The notes under the pieces: generated by a model
The model's input: only the letters and a program-made list of their open reading frames with translations
The model's database searches: none
Told to the model about the DNA's origin: nothing
Made by a program: the position numbers and the translations under genes
Shown: positions 48,887 through 64,000 of the stretch, piece by piece
Numbering within the stretch: the stretch's first letter is position 1
Layout: each line of letters opens with the position of its first letter
Source: Xenophilus sp. E41
GTDB lineage: Bacteria > Pseudomonadota > Gammaproteobacteria > Burkholderiales > Burkholderiaceae_C
Direction: 5' to 3'
DNA: 64,000 bases
Assembly: GCF_003671765.1 (NCBI RefSeq)
Contig: NZ_QPIB01000005.1
Location: 66,528-130,527 of the forward strand

Positions 48887-48993
48887 GCGCTGGCCGGGCC
48901 GATCCGGCGCAGCCGGTTCGGCGGCATCGAGGGGCGCCAAGCATCGCGCGGCGGGGATAGCCCACAGGGCTTTCCCCTGGAGTGCAAGCGCCA

Positions 48994-49107
48994 GCGCGTA
49001 GCGCCGCAGGCGCGAAGGCGTGAGGGATTGGAGCCGAATGGCCGTGACGGCTTGCCGGCACGGGGCGCAGCCCGAAAGCCCGGCGGCGCTTGCAGCGCCG
49101 ACACGCC
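48994..49107 (+). repeat. Dispersed ICE repeat, copy A
   Basis: A 114-bp GC-rich non-coding segment beginning GCGCGTAGCGCC and running through AAGGCGTGAGGGATTG, GCCGAATGGCCGTGA and GGGGCGCAGCCCGAAAGCCC. It closely matches copy B (50162-50274) and less closely copy C (56446-56563). Located between the XRE gene and the DUF736 gene. Confidence 0.75.
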
Positions 49108-49581: not shown

Positions 49582-50316
49582 GATGATTTCTCCTTTCGGG
49601 TTGAACAAGGTCGCGCCAGTGCGTCCTTGTTGTGATCCGTCCGGCGGGGGATGGGCTGGCCGCACCGCGCAGCGGTCGCAACACCGTGGAGAACCTGGAG
49701 GCGAAAAGAATTTGTCCCGCGAGGAATGCGCGCAGCGCAGGGGAAATTGTTTTCGCTGGAAGGTTGCGGCCATGAAGCCCAAGGCGCAGCCGCGCCACCG
49801 CCAGGATTCACAACAAGACAAGGACGCACAGGCCGCCCGCTCCCGAATGGAGACAGGGCCGACTCGGCATCCCCGCGTGACGGCTTCACCGGCTTGCGCC
49901 CTGACGCGGGCCAGGTCAATGCCCCGACGACAAGGCCAGAGCGCCCCAGCCGCAGCTCGCGGCACATGCTTGAGGCGTGGTGAGGAAGCTCCATCGGGCG
50001 AGGCCGAGCGGTGTGTCGGTGAACCGTCCTTCGTGACGTACAGGCAACGAATCGCCAGCGTCGAGGACGGCACGCTTTTGCACAACCTGCCGCAGCAAGC
50101 CGGGGCGTAGCCCCACAAGCTCCGCCCATTGCGGCGGGGCGCAGCCTTCCTCGCAAGCGAAGCGCGCAGCGCCACAGGCGCGAAGGCGTGAGGGATTGAA
50201 GCCGAATGGCCGTGATTCGGCACGAAGCACGGGGCGCAGCCCGAAAGCCCGGCGGCGCCTCGCGCCGACACGCCCAGGCCGTTCTATATTTTCAGGAAGT
50301 AACCCAAGACAAGCCC
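49582..50316. other. 735-bp non-coding stretch with repeat copy B
   Basis: Lies between DUF736 (minus) and GNAT (plus), so it carries both promoters. The segment from 49620 to 50150 has no family-like coding frame. GC-rich with strongly biased composition. Dispersed repeat copy B (50162-50274) occupies its right part. Confidence 0.5.
50162..50274 (+). repeat. Dispersed ICE repeat, copy B
   Basis: 113 bp aligned end to end with copy A: GCGCGCAGCGCC, AGGCGCGAAGGCGTGAGGGA, GCCGAATGGCCGTGATTCGG, GGGGCGCAGCCCGAAAGCCC, then GCCGACACGCC. It ends 43 bp before the GNAT start codon. Confidence 0.75.
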
Positions 50317-56240: not shown

Positions 56241-56688
56241 GGTGAACTCCTGCAAGGATGCCGGGCGGAATTGCCCGACCCTTCCGGGGCACGGCGCAGC
56301 GCAAGCAGTCAGGGGTCGCAGACGGCCGACAGGACGCAAGCGCGCATGGCGCGCGCCGCCCTTGACGGCGAGAACGCCGTGATACGGTGAAGGGAACAGC
56401 AAGACTGCCCACACCCGCCCGCTGCACACACTCGGCTTTTAGGGCAAGCGGAACGCGCAGGCTCGAAAGGGCCGGAGGCGTCAGGGGGCAAAGCCGAATG
56501 GCCGCGATTCGGCACGAAGCGCGGGGCGCAGCCCTCGAACCCGGCGGCGGCACGCCGGGACGCAATGAAGACTGTCAGATAGAATAAATAGGCATCGCGT
56601 CGACGAAAGATCCCCGTGCAGCGATGCTATTCTTTTCTTCGCTGCGATCATTCACGGCTCACAGCGTTGACACGATCGGAGATACGGC
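56241..56688. other. 448-bp non-coding leader with repeat copy C
   Basis: Holds the DUF2958 promoter (minus) and the leader of the zinc-ribbon gene (plus). Most of its right half is dispersed-repeat copy C. After 56575 the composition becomes AT-richer, marking the start of the accessory genes. Confidence 0.5.
56446..56563 (+). repeat. Dispersed ICE repeat, copy C
   Basis: AAGCGGAACGCGCAGG, GGAGGCGTCAGGGGGCAAAG, GCCGAATGGCCGCGATTCGG, CACGAAGCGCGGGGCGCAGC, then CCGGCGGCGGCACGCCGGGA. Aligned with copies A and B but more diverged. It lies about 210 bp upstream of the DUF2958 copy 2 start (minus). Confidence 0.7.
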
Positions 56689-56976
56689 ATGACGTTCAAA
56701 GCGGACAAGTACAACCGGTCGGTCTGTCTGAATTGCCCAACGTGCGGTGGCACTGAGTTTTCACACGACGGCGCTGATGGGCAGACGAGCGAACTGTTCA
56801 CCTGCGGCAACTGTGGGTTGCAGATTTCCAAGGATGATCTCATCCGAGCCAACGATGAGAACGTGCAAGCGCATGCCAAGGAGATCGGGAAAGCCGTCGT
56901 CAAAGATCTTCAGAAGGAACTGCACGAATCGCTGAAGAGGGCATTCCGCGGCAGCAAGAACATCAAGATCCGATGA
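56689..56976 (+). CDS. Small zinc-ribbon protein, ECs_2282-like
   Basis: 95 residues. Two CxxC pairs, CLNCPTCG (about 13-20) and CGNCG (about 44-48), make a zinc ribbon. The helical C-terminus is basic (GKAVVKDLQKELHESLKRAF, RGSKNIKIR). It matches the ECs_2282 type of putative zinc-binding proteins, carried with phage-like or defence cargo. It overlaps the next gene by 4 nt; the two are probably a functional pair. Confidence 0.7.
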   Translation: MTFKADKYNRSVCLNCPTCGGTEFSHDGADGQTSELFTCGNCGLQISKDDLIRANDENVQAHAKEIGKAVVKDLQKELHESLKRAFRGSKNIKIR

Positions 56977-57449
56977 TGCCCTTCCCAATCAGTGTTGGTG
57001 ATGCCATCGCCATAGGCGCTCTTTTGCTGTCCGCGTACGCCACTTGGACGACGTTCAGATTCAATCAGAAACAGAACAAGTTGATTGAGAGCCAGGATCG
57101 ACTGAACAAGCTACTTCTGGAAAAAGAAGCCACTGAAATCCTCAACATTAAGAAAGCGGACCTCGGCGCGACGTTCATCAAGATCGGCAGCAACAACCGA
57201 CGGCTGAAAATCTGGAACAAGGGGAAATCGGCCGCGCGCAACGTGTCGCTGTCGTTTCCCGATGGCAACGACTGCCTGGTTCAATCGGACATCGACTCGA
57301 AATTTCCGCTAGAGACACTGGACACGCTCCAGTCGGTGGAATTGATTGCGTCCATATCACTGGGTAGCAAAAGCAAGCACTCCATCAAGCTGACGTGGAG
57401 CGACGATTTCAGCGATCACAACGAGAAGGTGGTCTACCCGACGATCTGA
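56973..57449 (+). CDS. Membrane-anchored protein paired with zinc ribbon
   Basis: 158 residues. One transmembrane helix (VGDAIAIGALLLSAYATWTT, residues 7-27), a coiled coil (FNQKQNKLIESQDRLNKLLL) and a beta-rich cytoplasmic or periplasmic domain (RRLKIWNKGKSAARNVSLSF, SVELIASISLGSKSKHSIKL) like an immunoglobulin fold. Family not named. The gene ends 25 nt before the stop of the opposing PIN-like gene. Confidence 0.65.
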   Translation: MMPFPISVGDAIAIGALLLSAYATWTTFRFNQKQNKLIESQDRLNKLLLEKEATEILNIKKADLGATFIKIGSNNRRLKIWNKGKSAARNVSLSFPDGNDCLVQSDIDSKFPLETLDTLQSVELIASISLGSKSKHSIKLTWSDDFSDHNEKVVYPTI

Positions 57450-57474: not shown

Positions 57475-58293
57475 CTAGGAATAGAGCTGGCCGTCGGGAC
57501 AAAGCAGACCAAACCACCGCTGCAGTTTCTTTTCTCGCGTGGCGAACGATCCTTCCAGTGTTCCCAACAGGAGGTAGTGCGCGTCGAGAACATCGTGCTC
57601 GATTTTCTCGTAGGCTTTTCCGCTCAGTGTGTCGGGAACACGTCCACCATAACGACAATATGCGTCCAGCGCGAAAAGCAACTGGACCTGCTGCCAACGA
57701 AATAGTGCCCAATCCCGGGTCATGATCGTGGCAGGCGGTAGTGGAAGTTCGCCCGAAGGGACTTCCAGGCTCCCGTAGAACTTCAACATTGCATCGGTAT
57801 TGGTCGCGATGACCTCCTCGGCGGCCTCCCGCAGTGACTGTCGCTCCGCGCTGGTGCCTTCCAGAAGATTTGGGATTAGGGTCGGAATCAAGCGCACCCG
57901 GTCAAGAAATCGTTCGACATCTTCACGAAGTTCCGCCGTCTGCTCCTGAAGCGCCTCAGCCGCCGAAGGCGGCAGCGCGTAGTTCGCGCCGGTCAGCGCC
58001 TCGTTGAATTGGAAGCGGATATCCTCGTACCGCGTAGAGGGCTTGCCGCAGGCTTCGTGCGACTCTATCTCCTGTTTCAGCAGCGCCCCTACGTGATTGA
58101 CCAAGATCACCGGGTTCTCGATCTTGGGAAACTTGGCGAAGCAGCGCGAGCGTCCCGGTTCGGACGACGAGATCAACTCGTAGAAAAGTACGTCGGCCAT
58201 CAGCAACTGGTGCGACTGCGCGAGTTGCAGCATGTGCGCCGCCGTCGATCCTTGCAGGTAGTTCTTGTCGAGAACAATCGTGGGCTTTGCCAT
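57475..58293 (-). CDS. PIN-like domain protein in defence cassette
   Basis: 272 residues. Start MAKPTIVLDKNYLQG. Acidic pattern D9, D34, E39, then E232, D234 and D237 (EKIEHDVLDAHYLLLGTLEG) fits PIN-type nuclease metal sites; the usual final TNDxxL is replaced by ATREKKL at 251-257. The middle (residues 75-190) is helical. It follows the Rad50-like ATPase by 11 nt, so they are probably made together, with the ATPase controlling this nuclease. PIN function is inferred from pattern only. Confidence 0.6.
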   Translation of the reverse strand: MAKPTIVLDKNYLQGSTAAHMLQLAQSHQLLMADVLFYELISSSEPGRSRCFAKFPKIENPVILVNHVGALLKQEIESHEACGKPSTRYEDIRFQFNEALTGANYALPPSAAEALQEQTAELREDVERFLDRVRLIPTLIPNLLEGTSAERQSLREAAEEVIATNTDAMLKFYGSLEVPSGELPLPPATIMTRDWALFRWQQVQLLFALDAYCRYGGRVPDTLSGKAYEKIEHDVLDAHYLLLGTLEGSFATREKKLQRWFGLLCPDGQLYS

Positions 58294-58304
58294 TGAAGTC
58301 CGGA

Positions 58305-60944
58305 TCAGCTAAAGGTCGCCGCCTGGGGCTTGGCTTTCTCCCATGCCTTGCGCGCTGTGTTGTACTCAGCCTTGATGCGGTCCATCTGTGCCAATTCGTC
58401 AACCACGAAATCAATCGTCAACGGCACTTCGTGGAAGTCTGGCGAGTGGGAGTGAGCATCGATGTATCGGGATAACATCACCATGCGCGTGTGAACCTGT
58501 GCAGCAATGCCTTCATCAAAATACACCTGACTGAGGGTGAAGGTGATGTTCTCCCGCCAGCGGCGCACGACATTGCCGAACAGCTTTCGCTGAATGAAGT
58601 CCTCATAGGCGGTACGCAGGCTGCCACACGCCTTCTCCAGGCTGTCGCGCTGCTTGTCGCCATCCAGCGTGCGGGCGACGTCAAGGTGCTTTCGTGCGCG
58701 ATCGTGTGCAGCACCTTCGTAATGTTCGTGAGGGAAGGCCAGGCTGTCGATGACACCTGGCTCTTCGGCCTCGCCACGCCACACGGTCCGGCCCGCGAAA
58801 TCGACACCCTTTTCCACCGCAGCCGTCGCCAGATAGTTCGTAAACAGGATGTCGTGCGTAAAGACGATCACCTGCCGCTTGGCGGCTTCGTCCACCAGGC
58901 GTTGTGCGATCGCCTCTTTGCGTACATGGTCCATCGAGGTCACGGGGTCATCGAACACCACGCCCAAACAGGAACCGTTGAGTTCCACTTCAGTGAGAAA
59001 GTCGGCCAATGCCGCGGCGGTCTGTTCGCCCTCGCTCAGCACCGAAGACGGGTCGATGCCGGCCACGCTGGCGTTGGCAATCTCGATTTTGCGATCAGTC
59101 GTTCCAGCATCGCCCGCGAAGCGGAATTGCACCGGCAGCTTGAGCTGCAGGGCGGCGCAGTTCTCCGTGAATCGCGCGATGAAGCCCTGCGCCACCAGTT
59201 CTGTGGCCAGCGCTTTCTGCTTGCTGGTCACTTCGCGTTGGGATACGGCAAAGCCGCGGATGCACGAATTGGCCTTCACCACCCATTTGAGGTCTGCCAC
59301 CGCCGCAGCGATGGCATCGTACTGGCCGGAGAGCACCTGGCGATCGAGTAACAATCGCTCCTCTGCCATCAACGACCCCATCAGTACCTTGGGGTCCTTC
59401 TGTCGCAAGGCATCGTTGTCGGATTTCAGGCGCTCAACCAACTCCGTGATGCGTACCGAGACCGGGTCATGGTCCAACATGCTCAAGCCAGGGTCGAAGG
59501 CACCGGCAACCGCCCGCGCCAATGCTCCGATGACTTCCCGATAGCCTTCGACATGACTGGAAACCGCCGCGGCCATTGCGGCATCCACCTCGGTCAAGGT
59601 CCGGCGCGCGACACTGCCCTCGTCGAAGAAGGCGAGACTGATCTTCGACAACTTCGTGCCATACCCTGCGAGCGTTGTCTTGGCCTGGCCAAGCTGCGCT
59701 TCGACACCACTGGTTGCGAACTGATAGAAGCGGGTCAATCGTGCAATGCCGTCTTCGTCGAGAACCTGATGGCAAAGCACGCATCGGGCCGCATCCGCCT
59801 TCGGTGGAAACGCCTCGTCAGGATAGGCTTCGGCGTTGTAAGCAATGGCCGCAGCCAGCAGGTCACGCCATGCTGCTGTGCCGATGGGCTGCACCGGCTC
59901 CTCGCCCAACTGTGCCGCTGAGAGCGCTGACGCCTTTTCCGTCAGCGTCTGAATCTGCTTGACGGCATTGGTGATCTGTTCCGCGACTGCAGGCGATACA
60001 GCCATGTGCAAACCTGAGATCGATGCTTTCAGTGCGTCCAGATCGATGATGCGCTGCTCATTCTGGCGAATGATCTCCTTGGGATCGGTGGTCCTGAGTG
60101 TCGCGAGTTGCTGGACAACCGATTCCAGGCGCGCGCGCTCCTCGTCGCCGAAGGCGGCCAATGCCTGCAAGCCAACGAGGTCCGTCTGTGCCGTCAGGGT
60201 GATCAGCAGCGAAGCGACTTCGGACGTGCTGCCTGGAATCGCGAACTTGTCCGTAGCGTGGGAACGTAGAGCGATGTCATCGCGCAGCTTGCGCTGGAGC
60301 TTTCCGAAGACCTCCACCATGCGGGGAAAAACATCGAACAGATAAGGCATGACTTGGAAGGCATTGCGCTCATCCAGATGGACACGCACGCAGGTCGAGT
60401 CGAACACCGCGAAGTTGTCGCGCAGTCGCTGGCAAGGCTCCTTGTAGACAAATGTCGTGTTGGAGCCGTCGTCGAAGGCAAACGTCGCGCTAGGCGTGGG
60501 TTGTTTGTGCTTGGCCAACTTCACATCGCCGAGAATCGCGGTTTGCTTGGAACGGGTGAAGCATGCGGCTTTGAGCACTCGCGCATAGCCGGACTTGCCC
60601 GCACCGTTGGGACCATAGATCACAGTGAGCTTGCGCCCGAAAGTCAGTGTTTCACCCGGCGCCAGGGCGTTGACGCCGGTCAGTGCGGTCATGGCGGTCA
60701 CTACGCTTGAGTCCGTTGTGGGGCCGCCTTGGATCTGGGGCAAGGCGATGTCCCATGTGGCGCGTGGCATCTCCGTGGTGGCCAGTTGCTGGTCCATCAA
60801 GTACTCGCGGTAGACCTCATCCAAAGCCTCGTCCGGGAAATCGACGGCGCCAACGAGTTTGACCAGCAGGCACCGCTGCCAGTTGGAAAGCGTCTTGCCC
60901 CAAGCGGACAGCGCATCGAAGACATTGAACGCCGCTTGCGACAT
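58305..60944 (-). CDS. Rad50/RloC-like ATPase with CxxC hook
   Basis: 879 residues. Walker A GPNGAGKS (111-118), coiled-coil region with a zinc-hook-like CVLC (388-391), then the ABC signature LSEGEQTAAALA (636 on), Walker B CLGVVFDDPVTSMDH (659-673) and the H-loop FTHD (H697). The hook and coils are like SMC/Rad50 or RloC proteins, which sense DNA damage or foreign DNA. The C-terminal 150 residues are helical, with no anticodon-nuclease motif that I can see. Neighbours (PIN-like, HEPN-like and Mrr-like) suggest a defence complex with this as the sensor. Confidence 0.85.
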   Translation of the reverse strand: MSQAAFNVFDALSAWGKTLSNWQRCLLVKLVGAVDFPDEALDEVYREYLMDQQLATTEMPRATWDIALPQIQGGPTTDSSVVTAMTALTGVNALAPGETLTFGRKLTVIYGPNGAGKSGYARVLKAACFTRSKQTAILGDVKLAKHKQPTPSATFAFDDGSNTTFVYKEPCQRLRDNFAVFDSTCVRVHLDERNAFQVMPYLFDVFPRMVEVFGKLQRKLRDDIALRSHATDKFAIPGSTSEVASLLITLTAQTDLVGLQALAAFGDEERARLESVVQQLATLRTTDPKEIIRQNEQRIIDLDALKASISGLHMAVSPAVAEQITNAVKQIQTLTEKASALSAAQLGEEPVQPIGTAAWRDLLAAAIAYNAEAYPDEAFPPKADAARCVLCHQVLDEDGIARLTRFYQFATSGVEAQLGQAKTTLAGYGTKLSKISLAFFDEGSVARRTLTEVDAAMAAAVSSHVEGYREVIGALARAVAGAFDPGLSMLDHDPVSVRITELVERLKSDNDALRQKDPKVLMGSLMAEERLLLDRQVLSGQYDAIAAAVADLKWVVKANSCIRGFAVSQREVTSKQKALATELVAQGFIARFTENCAALQLKLPVQFRFAGDAGTTDRKIEIANASVAGIDPSSVLSEGEQTAAALADFLTEVELNGSCLGVVFDDPVTSMDHVRKEAIAQRLVDEAAKRQVIVFTHDILFTNYLATAAVEKGVDFAGRTVWRGEAEEPGVIDSLAFPHEHYEGAAHDRARKHLDVARTLDGDKQRDSLEKACGSLRTAYEDFIQRKLFGNVVRRWRENITFTLSQVYFDEGIAAQVHTRMVMLSRYIDAHSHSPDFHEVPLTIDFVVDELAQMDRIKAEYNTARKAWEKAKPQAATFS

Positions 60945-61015
60945 GAAGATTCCTTGTTTTAAGCCATTTGAATCTCGTTCAACAGGCTGGGACGGTCTAT
61001 TCAGAGGAGGCAGGT

Positions 61016-61041
61016 GATTGTCGTATCACGATACAACAATC
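61016..61041. promoter_or_regulatory. 26-bp operator-like palindrome before the ATPase
   Basis: GATTGTCGTATC (61016-61027), AC, then GATACAACAATC (61030-61041): 11 of 12 arm pairs match. It lies 72-97 bp upstream of the ATPase start and 22 bp past the HEPN-like stop, in the only sizeable gap (119 bp) of the cassette. It probably marks a second promoter for the ATPase-PIN pair. Confidence 0.5.
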
Positions 61042-61063
61042 GATCAGGACGGCGTTGCGACGC

Positions 61064-61882
61064 CTACGAAAAGGACACTGCCGCTTTCTGCACGCCATCC
61101 AGTTTTCTATGGATCAGTGAAACCAGCGTCAAGATGTCGAGCGCATCCTGCTCAGACATAGGCCAATTCGTCTTCGGGGCATGGGCCAAGGGATTGCGCA
61201 CGGCGCCGAACAGACCGATTAGCAAGTTCGCAAATCCTCTCTGCTCGCTCTTTTCGGACTCGGTGCTCAGTGGTCCCAAGACCAAGATTGGCTGCTGACC
61301 CGCGAACGCCTTGTTCACCAAGTCGGCACCATCGCCGGTCAACCCCGACAGTATGCGAATTCGCTCGGCGACACCCTTGCTCGCCTCGAAGACCGCATGA
61401 AAATAGTTCTCGTCCAACAGCTCGGCTCGGCAGTAATTCAAGACCTCCGCATGGACGACTCTGCTTTCCAGCGCCGCCTTGAGACGTCCAGCGCGTGCGC
61501 GGGCTGCATCCAACGTCGTCGCCTTGTCGGCATATCCCACCTTGCCATCGTCGCGAACATAGAAGCCAGAGAACGCCAGCACGACATTGAGTTCATCCCG
61601 CAGCCAAGCAAATGTTCCAGGATCGCGCACGTAGTTCACCGGGTTCATTGCGCGGTTGATGAACATAATCAGATGGTTGCCTCGCTGATGCTTGTTCTGC
61701 AACTCGGCGAGCGCGTTGAACAACCGCTTCCACTTCGTCATGCCCGGCGATGGGTCGATCACTTCCATCTCTTGCAGCAGCCTCCCAATCTGTGTGCCAC
61801 TCAAGCCGCGCTCGGTGTCTGCAAGCACACGGCAGGCAGCTTCAAGATGCTGAGAACTGAACAGGTCAATTTGCGCCGCCAT
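61064..61882 (-). CDS. TIGR02391 family protein, HEPN-like
   Basis: 272 residues. The C-terminal half matches TIGR02391 (Ymh): ENYFHAVFEASKGVAERIRI, LSGLTGDGADLVNKAFAGQQ, SEQRGFANLLIGLFGAVRNP. RNPLAH (R229-x4-H234) is the HEPN RNase motif. The N-terminal half is a helical accessory domain. TIGR02391 proteins cluster with restriction-modification and other defence genes. The gene starts 17 nt after the Mrr-like stop. Enzymatic activity is inferred. Confidence 0.8.
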   Translation of the reverse strand: MAAQIDLFSSQHLEAACRVLADTERGLSGTQIGRLLQEMEVIDPSPGMTKWKRLFNALAELQNKHQRGNHLIMFINRAMNPVNYVRDPGTFAWLRDELNVVLAFSGFYVRDDGKVGYADKATTLDAARARAGRLKAALESRVVHAEVLNYCRAELLDENYFHAVFEASKGVAERIRILSGLTGDGADLVNKAFAGQQPILVLGPLSTESEKSEQRGFANLLIGLFGAVRNPLAHAPKTNWPMSEQDALDILTLVSLIHRKLDGVQKAAVSFS

Positions 61883-61899
61883 TGCCGACCTCTCCGCGT

Positions 61900-62841
61900 T
61901 TAGCGGACGACAACATCGAACGGTGCATGCACCGAGCGAAAGGTAGCGAGGATGCGGTCACGGGCGCAATCCAGTTCGTCCGCTACACGAGAACTGAGCA
62001 TGTAGGTGGGGCAGTCCGCCTTGCCGCATTCACAATGCCGGATCTCGCCTTCTCGGAGGCGAGAGACGAAGATGCGGCGCAGTTCATCGACTTGACGCAC
62101 AACCTGGGCCAGCACCTTGCGAACACGCTGATCTCTGATGTGATGGATCGATGGAATGCGCCGAATTTCGGTGCCTTCACGTGTTCTCCACGCTCCGGTG
62201 TTGAGTGCTCGAATGGTGTCCTCAACAGCTTGCTGGAAGGCGGGTAGCGAACTTTCCTGTTGAAAAGGTGTGCGAAAAGCAGGCCGGTCGAATACGGCAG
62301 CCATCAAACCCAGCGCCTCGGCGTCGGATAAGCCAGGGAAGTCATCAACGAATTTTCGGATCTCAGCTTCGGCTTCGGGGAACTCGACTCCCTGGACGAA
62401 GCGGTGCAAGAGGTATTCGCCACGCAAACGCAGGTTCTCCTCGAACTCGACGCTCGACCAGATCGTCACATGCGCTACGCCAAGTGCAGCAGCGCTATCG
62501 CTGATCCGTGTTCTGCTGGCGTCAGAGACTGCACCACGACAGATGAATTTGAAAGCATCTGGCGTACCGCCAGTAGCCTCGACAGCCTTCTCCATATCGG
62601 TTCGGGCTTTCGCCAGGGTCAGCATGTCACGATTAGCGCACTGGATAATCGTCTTGCGCGAAGGTCGATCGTCAAACTCCTCGATTCCGAAGATGTCTCG
62701 TCCCTGGTCGCTACCCGATTGGCCGTGCCAGATCAGGTCGCGCCAGCCGGTACGAACGTGATAAGCAAAAGCAAGGCGCTCAAATTGAACGCCGCTGTAG
62801 TCTTCAAAGTGAATCGGATGAACGATGCTTGCCATAGGCAT
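61900..62841 (-). CDS. Mrr/PD-(D/E)xK-like protein with Cys cluster
   Basis: 313 residues (MPMASIV; a start at the second Met is possible). N-terminal restriction-endonuclease-like fold: FERLAFAYHVRTGWRDLIWH, then GSDQGRDIFG (D49) and the strand KTIIQCANRD. In Mrr-type enzymes the last motif is QxK; here the lysine position is A (QCAN), so catalysis may be lost or altered. A C-terminal HCECGKADC could bind zinc. It starts 6 nt after the antitoxin gene, so it is in the same operon. Confidence 0.6.
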   Translation of the reverse strand: MPMASIVHPIHFEDYSGVQFERLAFAYHVRTGWRDLIWHGQSGSDQGRDIFGIEEFDDRPSRKTIIQCANRDMLTLAKARTDMEKAVEATGGTPDAFKFICRGAVSDASRTRISDSAAALGVAHVTIWSSVEFEENLRLRGEYLLHRFVQGVEFPEAEAEIRKFVDDFPGLSDAEALGLMAAVFDRPAFRTPFQQESSLPAFQQAVEDTIRALNTGAWRTREGTEIRRIPSIHHIRDQRVRKVLAQVVRQVDELRRIFVSRLREGEIRHCECGKADCPTYMLSSRVADELDCARDRILATFRSVHAPFDVVVR

Positions 62842-62847
62842 CGAACA

Positions 62848-63165
62848 TCAAGCCGCGTGCGCCGAGGGCGCAGAAGCCAGCGGCTGCACAGCCAAGCGTA
62901 GGCCCATCGTCTTGAGGATGGCGGTCAAGCTGTTCAGGGCGGGATTGCCCTTCGGCGACAACGTGCGGTAAAGCTGCGTCGGGTTAAGGTGAGCCTGTTC
63001 GGCCACCGCCTGCACGCCGCCGACTGTCTGCGCAAGCTGGCGCAGCACGGTCATCAGTTCGGCTTGGTCGCCATCGGCCAGGATGTTGTTGATGACTTCA
63101 AGTGCGAGCGCCGGATCGTTGCGGTACAGCTCGGCCATCGCCTCGTCATGGGATTTGCCTCTCAT
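62848..63165 (-). CDS. HigA-like antitoxin
   Basis: 105 residues from MRGKSHDEAMAELYRNDPAL. C-terminal HTH: LAQTVGGVQAVAEQAHLNPT, then LYRTLSPKGNPALNSLTAI, the XRE/HigA-type of antitoxin seen after HigB/RelE-like toxins (addiction module, toxin first). It overlaps the toxin gene by 4 nt. It leads directly into the Mrr-like gene. Confidence 0.8.
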   Translation of the reverse strand: MRGKSHDEAMAELYRNDPALALEVINNILADGDQAELMTVLRQLAQTVGGVQAVAEQAHLNPTQLYRTLSPKGNPALNSLTAILKTMGLRLAVQPLASAPSAHAA

Positions 63166-63491
63166 TCGTCGATTCTCCGTTGCCAGTCCTGCCAATAGCC
63201 CACCGCCCGGTCAATGTCCGCATCCTGGGTGCGCTTGTCGCCACCACACAGCAGCAGCACCAACCGTTGCCCCGCTAGGCCGTAATAAACCCGATAGCCA
63301 GGCCCCGCGTCGATGCGCAGCTCCCACACGCCATCTCGGCAAAACTTGTGGTCGCCGAAGTTGCCTTGCTCGATACGGGCCACGCGGCGGATGACCGCCA
63401 CCTTGGCTTGTGCATCACGCAAGCGCCGCAGCCAGTCGGTGTAGAGATCCTTCTGTACGTCGGCCGAGAGGTAGTGCTCGATTCGGTACAT
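63162..63491 (-). CDS. RelE/HigB-like toxin
   Basis: 109 residues. MYRIEHYLSADVQKDLYTDW, RDAQAKVAVIRRVARIEQGN, KFCRDGVWELRIDAGPGYRV, YYGLAGQRLVLLLCGGDKRT and DIDRAVGYWQDW match the RelE/ParE family HigB-like subgroup (phage Gp49-like). Cleaves mRNA on the ribosome in related proteins. It is the first gene of the six-gene cassette; a 19-bp palindrome 62 bp upstream may be its operator. Confidence 0.88.
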   Translation of the reverse strand: MYRIEHYLSADVQKDLYTDWLRRLRDAQAKVAVIRRVARIEQGNFGDHKFCRDGVWELRIDAGPGYRVYYGLAGQRLVLLLCGGDKRTQDADIDRAVGYWQDWQRRIDE

Positions 63492-63592: not shown

Positions 63593-64000
63593 TCATGCTT
63601 CGACCTCCGCCTGGCGTTGCGCACCCGTGATCGTCTTGCGCCGGGCCGCCACTAGTTCGGCCGCTTGCCGCACCGGATCGTCCTCGGTATGGACGTAGCG
63701 CATGAACATCGCCGCGGTCTTGTGCGCTGTCAGCGCCATGCCGACCTTTAGGGGAACGCCCGAATTGGCAATGTCGGTCGCCGAGCGGTGGCGGATACCG
63801 TGAGTGCCGACCTTCGGCACACCGGCACGGTCAAGGATGCGCCGCCACGCCTGATAGTAGGTGTGGGTGCTGAGGGGCTTGCTGTGGTCGAGGATCGCCG
63901 GGCAGACATAGGGCGAATCGCCGTAGCGAGGAGCATTGGTCAGCCGCCGGCGGGCTTCCTCACTCAAGGGCTTGGACATATCGCCGGTCTTGCTGTCCGG
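63593..64000 (-). CDS. int: Tyrosine recombinase (ICE integrase), C-terminal part
   Basis: The frame stays open past an internal Met to the window edge (PDSKTGD before MSKPL), so at least 135 C-terminal residues are seen and the N-terminus lies outside. Catalytic residues: HGIRHRSA (HxxR), AHKTAAMFMRYVHTE (H/W and the nucleophile Tyr). The integrase belongs to the Tn4371-like ICE, whose other end is at about 13.76 kb, so the ICE spans just over 50 kb. Confidence 0.85.
   Translation of the reverse strand, partial: PDSKTGDMSKPLSEEARRRLTNAPRYGDSPYVCPAILDHSKPLSTHTYYQAWRRILDRAGVPKVGTHGIRHRSATDIANSGVPLKVGMALTAHKTAAMFMRYVHTEDDPVRQAAELVAARRKTITGAQRQAEVEA

Follow-up and report, generated by a model that had tools for sequence, protein, structure and literature searches.

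A six-gene cassette beside the integrase of an integrative and conjugative element in Xenophilus sp. E41 may consist of two stacked abortive-infection-type modules, one of them with an RloC-type gene

PD-Lambda-3 requires both an A protein and a B protein. It is described as an abortive infection system (PMC13190303), and a table in PMC10952713 ties it to a PD-(D/E)xK-type domain. RloC was defined by Davidov and Kaufmann in 2008 (PMC2610378) as a protein of 658-897 aa with the motifs of an ABC ATPase, a zinc-hook insert bearing CX2C and the residues Arg-X3-Glu-X36-52-His, and it is listed as a translation-stopping defence system, untested there, in PMC12322248. The Ymh family and the nuclease domain of RloC and PrrC both belong to the HEPN superfamily (PMC3710099). 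In the present study, we analysed a stretch of 64,000 nucleotides of Xenophilus sp. E41 (contig NZ_QPIB01000005.1, positions 66,528 to 130,527; hereafter the window), in which six genes, g1 to g6, adjoin the integrase gene of an integrative and conjugative element (ICE). We consider that this cassette is probably composed of two separate abortive-infection-type modules, the first a HigBA pair (g1-g2) together with g3 and g4, and the second the RloC-type gene g5 with g6, lying one behind the other in the cargo site near the integrase of one ICE family.

When the open reading frames (ORFs) were recomputed, all six genes were found on the minus strand within 57475-63491, and the distances from g1 to g6 (-4, 6, 17, 119 and 11 nt) were identical to those in an earlier note on this DNA, as was the position next to the integrase. 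Gene g1 (63162-63491) encodes a RelE/ParE toxin of the HigB type of 109 aa, and g2 (62848-63165) a HigA-type antitoxin, whose ATG start overlaps the stop of g1 by 4 nt (an alternative TTG start lies upstream at 63195). They are followed by g3 (61900-62841, 313 aa) with a divergent Mrr-like N-terminal domain, g4 (61064-61882) for a HEPN-family protein (Ymh/TIGR02391/PD-Lambda-3_B), a spacer of 119 nt (60945-61063) that we take as the module junction, g5 (58305-60944, 879 aa), which is of the RloC type, and g6 (57475-58293, 272 aa), which starts 11 nt past g5 and has no assigned family. The 3' part of the tyrosine integrase gene (63593-64000, minus strand; PF00589, E = 7.1e-13) belongs to a 399-aa ORF in the assembly. 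The ratio of nonsynonymous to synonymous change (dN/dS) between the window and three related loci (L027, L028 and L029) was 0.07-0.16, indicating purifying selection on all six genes; because the differences are mainly silent, g1 to g6, including the family-less g6, are maintained proteins and not chance ORFs. The residues singled out in the earlier note (K117, R229/H234, D9 and D34) lie where it had put them in the translations. Its view of the cassette as defence-type cargo at an ICE integrase also held, in that all products but that of g6 fall into toxin or nucleic-acid-attack families (g3 weakly). Among its family labels, RelE/HigB for g1, TIGR02391/HEPN for g4 and ATPase for g5 were borne out and Mrr-like for g3 found weak support, and PIN-like for g6 was not confirmed.

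When 84,980 species genomes were scanned for g6 with a pattern-based search, 10 loci were obtained. All six genes occur in order at eight of them, and these eight represent one ICE family, with an integrase at seven (the eighth, L027, is a short contig). Five full-set loci (L022-L026), from two Hydrogenophaga metagenome-assembled genomes (MAGs), two Variovorax and one Comamonadaceae MAG, have 99.6-100% protein identity, which, across these loci and the window, is consistent with recent spread of the ICE. The other three (L027-L029, 93-97%) are from a Lysobacterales MAG, a Rhizobiaceae MAG and Stutzerimonas stutzeri KOS6, so that MAGs account for five of the eight, the Lysobacterales and Rhizobiaceae ones among them. 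At the ninth locus (L030, Caballeronia), g5 and g6 have been fused out of frame by a deletion, residues 1-498 of g5 being retained at 72% identity, and no g1-g4 lie beside them. At the tenth, in a Herminiimonas MAG, the tail of g6 stands near a contig end and is preceded by what we read by eye as IS21 istAB genes. At least 80% of the cassette was found in none of 147 plasmid records having a match, and megablast gave no match to the cassette in E. coli genomes. Related elements carry ymh, the gene of the g4 family, without g6: contig C10 of the same genome (in which the g6 of the window is the single match), pKAZ5, and the viral-collection loci L048-L050, the ymh of L050 being known from a tblastn match only. 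On pKAZ5, where the integrase is 70% identical, ymh is separated from the integrase gene by genes for RelE and a DNA-binding protein; a helix-turn-helix (HTH) gene was seen in L048 and L049, and an integrase-like ORF of 399-400 aa was read by eye in L048 and L050. We favour two modules because the Caballeronia remnants of g5-g6 have no g1-g4 beside them and because these related elements have ymh but no g6.

The junction between g4 and g5 also argues for two modules. The spacer is about 400 nt longer in L027-L029 than in the window, and the extra DNA holds, as read by eye, the tail of a decayed gene with its stop 14 nt before g5. The last codons of this tail still align in the window spacer; the gene had no plasmid match. 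In L028 and L029 the extra DNA includes a stretch of 151-155 nt (L028 5894-6044) that is 77-79% identical to a repeat lying outside the cargo at its distal edge (L028 10740-10884; window 56408-56554, minus strand), and because of these two copies the part comprising g5, g6 and the two genes beyond them (o7-o8, described below) is framed by direct repeats in these loci. Thus, the extra DNA with a gene tail, and in two loci with an ICE repeat, sits exactly between the proposed modules. Further copies were found at about 50.2 and 49.0 kb of the window (50153-50263 and 48984-49107), on contig C10 just past the ATPase gene (L005 6093-6203), and on pKAZ5 between the last cargo gene and radC (L015 7220-7355). 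This dispersed repeat of about 110-155 bp, with copies roughly 69-87% identical, occurs at boundaries of cargo and backbone and may serve as a recombination substrate for cargo exchange; a special single-strand fold of the repeat received no support (z = 0.14). Judging from the repeat copies, the two modules would have been joined by recombination at ICE repeats, and because of such a joining the apparent operon would be partly an accident of stacking. Directly past g4 in the spacer lies a near-perfect inverted repeat (61018-61039), which forms a hairpin of 11 pairs (for the whole spacer z = -1.26, and 24 of 200 shuffles fold as well). The 12-mer core of the palindrome is kept in 8/8 full-set loci, and the palindrome could be an operator or a hairpin; the search pattern was taken from the site itself, so a shuffle count of 0 says nothing on its rarity.

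The product of g5 matched AAA_13 of Pfam (E = 7.2e-15) and the unnamed PADLOC candidate PDC-S06 (E = 4.4e-120). It has a Walker A motif (residues 111-118), a CVLC hook (388-391), LSEGEQ (636-641), FDDP (664-667) and THD (696-698), followed by the C-terminal triad R777-x3-E781-x49-H831. When the g5 product of the window was aligned with a 96% copy and 14 relatives at 22-66% identity (16 proteins in all), the ATPase residues G111, N113, G114, G116, K117, S637, E638, G639, E640, D665, D666, P667 and H697 as well as C388, C391, R777, E781, R795 and H831 were invariant in all 16. The same R, E, R and H were kept in 17/17 C-terminal regions of a second set, of which 15 came from viral-collection contigs and which overlaps the first in the window and one near-copy lineage. 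One CxxC each was found in 39 g5-type ORFs (41 loci were given, L088 and L096 yielded no ORF, and loci without a full ORF were not included). The loci L040, L043, L053, L054, L057 and L069-L072, where no ORF passed the filter, as well as L073-L087 with short matches, were left out of the g5 comparisons. A pattern scan with a triad spacing of 36-56 picked another Arg in L013, L038 and L059, and the triad is therefore claimed from the alignments.

By these motifs g5 appears to be an RloC-type anticodon nuclease with a zinc hook: it shares with RloC the ABC-ATPase motifs, a single CX2C, Arg-X3-Glu-X49-His and, with 879 aa, the length. It should therefore carry an anticodon-nuclease domain of its own and is probably an effector itself, not only a sensor. 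In an AlphaFold model of residues 700-879 (mean predicted local distance difference test score, pLDDT, 74), this region is a helical bundle with the R and the E on one helix. Unlike RloC, g5 is followed after 11 nt by g6, a gene that the available part of PMC2610378 does not mention with RloC, and it is preceded by the tail of the decayed gene. The ATPase and the anticodon nuclease triad are common to g5 and PrrC; however, PrrC is without the hook insert and linked to hsd genes (PMC2610378), whereas no hsd gene is among g1-g6, and the PADLOC match of g5 to PrrC has an E-value of only 7.3e-4. In L035, a distant g5 relative is preceded, at a distance of 12 nt, by a gene that we read by eye as HsdS. 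Relatives of g5 were present in 16 of 399 order-sample genomes (E <=1e-30) and 15 of 398 phylum-sample genomes (E <=1e-40), the own genome included in both. The closest one seen outside the cassette (67%) is from a Yersinia ruckeri plasmid, where it shares 4 nt with a recombinase gene and g6 is absent. The neighbours of distant relatives were read in part of the loci, and by eye no conserved partner gene dominates there. In the viral collection, the RloC-like genes of L059 and L062 each overlap a gene downstream, which we read by eye as SbcD. At least for the models matching g5 near full length, PDC-S06 looks like RloC in sequence, and its members could be tested as tRNases.

For the first module, the comparison is with PD-Lambda-3. 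The g4 product matched PADLOC PD-Lambda-3_B (PDLC03987) with 567.8 bits (E = 7.6e-172) and PF09509 (Hypoth_ymh) with an E-value of 9.7e-45, and its match to TIGR02391 was also strong. Its motif R229-N-x3-H234 is kept in 39/39 of the locus rows covering it, the most distant at 40% identity; many of these rows are copies of one gene. The g4 family was uncommon in the genome samples, with 3/369 class-sample genomes at E <=1e-10 (the own genome included) and 0/14 control genomes, and matches were found in 122 plasmid records. On an Enterobacter plasmid, ymh is immediately preceded by a gene for PD-Lambda-3_A (E = 2.3e-100), in which a PD-(D/E)xK motif was read by eye. In the window, g3 is directly upstream of g4, as A is of B. 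However, g3 matched neither the PADLOC model of PD-Lambda-3_A (PDLC03986) nor, in BLASTP, authentic A, so that A (159 aa) is replaced in position by an unrelated protein of 313 aa. Judged from the sequences, g3-g4 resemble PD-Lambda-3 but are not PD-Lambda-3, A next to B being absent here.

The Mrr-type PD-(D/E)xK nuclease motif consists of D and (E/Q)xK within the Mrr_cat domain. The match of g3 to Mrr_cat of Pfam was weak and under the cut-off (E = 0.021), that to PADLOC PDC-M58A gave an E-value of 1.7e-5, and an Achromobacter relative of g3 matched Mrr_cat above the cut-off (E = 1.2e-4). Among five aligned g3-type proteins, G43, D45, G47, R48, D49, I66, C68, N70 and K78 are invariant; QxK is not conserved, as the Q and K positions vary and I66, C68 and N70 are invariant instead. 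A g3-like domain (48% over 164 residues) opens a 1152-aa protein of an Acidisarcina plasmid (L020 4875-8333), the next part of which reads by eye as a P-loop NTPase, with no family given by Pfam, and which is encoded near a Swt1-type HEPN gene. No relative turned up when the viral collection was scanned with single g3, g5 and g6 proteins or with the g3 alignment.

The first module begins with what is a HigBA-type toxin-antitoxin (TA) pair, as the two genes are adjacent members of toxin and antitoxin families in one operon. The g1 product matched the TIGR02683 RelE/ParE family of NCBIfam with 124.6 bits (cut-off 62.85) and PF05973 of Pfam (E = 8.1e-8), and g2 matched the addiction-module antidote PF21716 (E = 1.2e-10; 41.5 bits, above the Pfam cut-off of 27). 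The pair is like HigBA as represented by TIGR02683-TIGR02684, except that g2 scores 42.2 bits against TIGR02684, under the NCBIfam cut-off of 53.7. An RloC-like gene of the viral collection (L068 2592-6355) is also preceded by a HigBA-type pair, with a HigB 59% identical to g1, which makes it an independent TA-RloC neighbourhood.

The g6 gene of the second module is genuine but very rare: it was found in 2/399 order-sample genomes, namely the own genome and one with a 100% copy, and its profile in 3/398 phylum-sample genomes, the third being a weak partial match. No PIN match was obtained in library or solved-structure searches. The best matches were at chance level (UPRTase, E = 0.21; PHROG 21461, E = 0.22; PDB chains, E >=0.17), and a further profile match (G972, E = 0.002) covered residues 21-85 only. 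The only phage match (E = 0.6) was to a 669-aa protein of a Bradyrhizobium prophage, encoded amid tail genes and without any cassette gene nearby, and we rejected it as chance. By eye, D9, E39, D237 and E254 are acidic residues that could make up a PIN site divided between the two ends of the protein. A precedent for such a split of PIN acidic residues is DS-3 (PMC13092281); the candidate residues of g6 are likewise at both ends around a long middle, although DS-3 works alone and g6 has no confirmed PIN identity. Possibly, g6 is a dedicated rare partner of the g5 RloC and a second RNase, of the PIN type. The literature searched on RloC, PIN domain, HEPN and TIGR02391/PF09509 did not contain the RloC-g6 pair, which is no proof of its absence. 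The pair is the newest element of the cassette; it and the replacement of A by g3 are new variants, and the other parts are mostly known.

From the motifs, the selection, the recurrence and the junction that we observed, we infer the biochemical steps as follows. In the first module, g3 in the slot of the PD-(D/E)xK partner probably senses or engages foreign DNA, and the HEPN RNase g4 would, as its family suggests, cut RNA and stop growth as in PD-Lambda-3, HigBA stabilising the element or backing up the arrest. In the second, the Rad50-like zinc-hooked ATPase of g5 would restrain the C-terminal HEPN nuclease until DNA damage, phage attack or failure of restriction frees this anticodon nuclease, whereupon tRNA would be cut and translation would stop, a mechanism taken from studied RloC, which removes the wobble nucleotide from a tRNA under control by zinc and its ATPase. 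The g6 product would aid g5, perhaps as a PIN RNase with the four acidic residues.

Several observations weigh against the two-module arrangement or its parts. The six genes stay together in two ICE lineages with a dS of 0.12-0.27 in these genes, which a single system would also explain, and the full-set hosts are named Comamonadaceae, Lysobacterales, Rhizobiaceae and Stutzerimonas. In a crude scan, no promoter-like site was found in the g4-g5 spacer and one before g1, and a single transcript is therefore possible; neither promoter-like (1 found, 1.8 expected) nor terminator-like sites (6 found, 7.3 expected) exceeded shuffles. There are ymh fragments elsewhere in the Caballeronia genome, g3 may, by its sequence, be without the nuclease lysine, and g6 has no family and an unusable AlphaFold model (pLDDT 39). 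For g5 residues 700-879, the first four Foldseek rows are two entries with HEPN in their titles, SO_3166 and TT1696, with E-values (0.16-0.27) that are not significant, and the HEPN rows have VIA Z of 7.1-7.6 amid unrelated bundles, one of which scores 8.6. The TT1696 structure is presumably that of a HEPN protein. SO_3166 is a HEPN protein according to PMC4621449.

If the cassette were one integrated multi-effector system, the RloC-like ATPase would sense invading DNA and command g4, g3 and g6, with HigBA as a fail-safe. This would account for the same order of all six genes at eight of the ten g6 loci (93-100% identity), the purifying selection on every gene and the short intergenic gaps. 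However, the full set is confined to one ICE family, none of the 147 plasmid records holds 80% of it, other genes adjoin the relatives of g3, g4 and g5 in the regions opened, an effector triad is present in g5 itself, and a relic gene with an ICE repeat lies between g4 and g5 in related loci; we regard a single system as unlikely. The earlier note had assumed one ATPase sensor governing PIN-, HEPN- and Mrr-like subunits, and this was not supported, given the RloC type of g5 itself, the restriction of the full set to one ICE family and the g4/g5 boundary. The check that it suggested, whether the gene order recurs in unrelated genomes, was run and gave the one ICE family, with other neighbours at g3, g4 and g5 relatives. 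What the note itself named as refuting its reading, relatives among unrelated neighbours or assignment to a described system, largely applies, as g5 also fits RloC and g4 is of the PD-Lambda-3_B family. Partners of Lamassu, Gabija and Septu (LmuA, GajA/GajB, PtuA/PtuB) had no PADLOC match in g1-g4 or g6, and g5 gave weak matches to mad3 (3.9e-12), LmuB (2e-8) and AriA (4.3e-7) among the best 25 of 34 families. A HigBA-type pair adjoining the integrase, and the RelE and DNA-binding genes at the same place on pKAZ5, would suit a device mainly for addiction to, or stability of, the ICE and not for anti-phage defence; since the families of g4 and g5 have been tested or listed as anti-phage and g5 has no evident antitoxin partner, we hold this to be very unlikely. 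With two modules as the favoured reading, the apparent six-gene mystery turns into testable claims, and stacked ICE cargo modules, which can mimic a single operon, call for caution in guilt-by-association discovery.

Two further alternatives concern the parts. A sharper form of the two-module reading is that g5-g6 are a true two-gene RloC variant, with g6 as an inhibitor, a tRNA-specificity factor or a second RNase, and g1-g4 are separate cargo. The 11-nt gap, the purifying selection on g6 (dN/dS 0.11-0.13 against the related loci) and the position of g5 upstream of g6 at nine of the ten g6 loci, Caballeronia included, speak for it, the tenth being cut short behind the istAB genes near the contig end. 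However, the closest outside relative of g5, on the Y. ruckeri plasmid, is without g6, no g6 occurs at the other g5-relative loci in the flanks examined (short for many), the Caballeronia copy is broken, and only two independent contexts back the pair, so that we see the variant as a real possibility that falls somewhat short of probable. The other alternative makes g4 a promiscuous HEPN effector that joins any adjacent defence system, its pairing with g3 being incidental. We opened 17 plasmid regions, 13 of them with g4 relatives, using the annotations as deposited; they were hand-picked for spread and allow no statistic. Relatives of g4 there adjoin genes for PD-Lambda-3_A, HamA/helicase, Mrr_cat, Shedu, ABC-three-component, type I endonuclease and HEPN proteins, but in 7/9 of the regions opened for spread ymh is preceded, at less than 100 nt, by a gene on the same strand. 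This is also the case in PD-Lambda-3 and suggests a true slot for a partner, and promiscuity seems to us possible though open to some doubt. Rather doubtful, in our opinion, is a combined scheme in which g5-g6 are a two-protein RloC with a split-PIN-like helper, which finishes nicked tRNA or sets the choice of tRNA and so defeats phage tRNA repair, and g3-g4 are a PD-Lambda-3 relative with an Mrr-like sensor and Ymh as an exchangeable kill module.

Among individual plasmid regions, ymh lies in L014 beside a PD-Lambda-3_A gene, truncated as read by eye, followed by HamA and a helicase (Hachiman), in L019 beside PD-Lambda-3_A and an Mrr_cat protein, in L107 and L108 beside ABC-three-component genes (with a type I restriction endonuclease in L108), in L111 beside a Shedu nuclease, and in L112 beside another HEPN protein. 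The other opened ymh regions had TA genes, or mainly transposases, as neighbours. Plasmids from at least four phyla carry Ymh HEPN genes, which in Pseudomonadota adjoin a variety of DNA-targeting defence genes, and the family is a candidate shared effector. The trend in its partners is already known, because Ymh in operons with restriction-modification genes was noted in PMC3710099.

Two overlapping plus-strand genes (o7-o8, window 56689-57449) converge on g6 and travel with the cassette. The second encodes 158 aa without a family match in Pfam, PADLOC or NCBIfam, and the first an ECs_2282-type zinc-binding protein that matched the PADLOC candidate PDC-M14A (E = 3.7e-8). In Caballeronia, AbiEi/AbiEii genes (L030 5864-7500) lie directly before the broken RloC-g6. 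On contig C10 (L005 263-6034), a second ymh (88%) stands behind an HTH gene and is followed by genes for 427 and 236 aa; neither PADLOC nor Pfam gave a family for the 236-aa product or for the 427-aa protein in its pKAZ5 copy. A second RloC-like gene (30%) lies on the opposite strand of this contig and converges on them.

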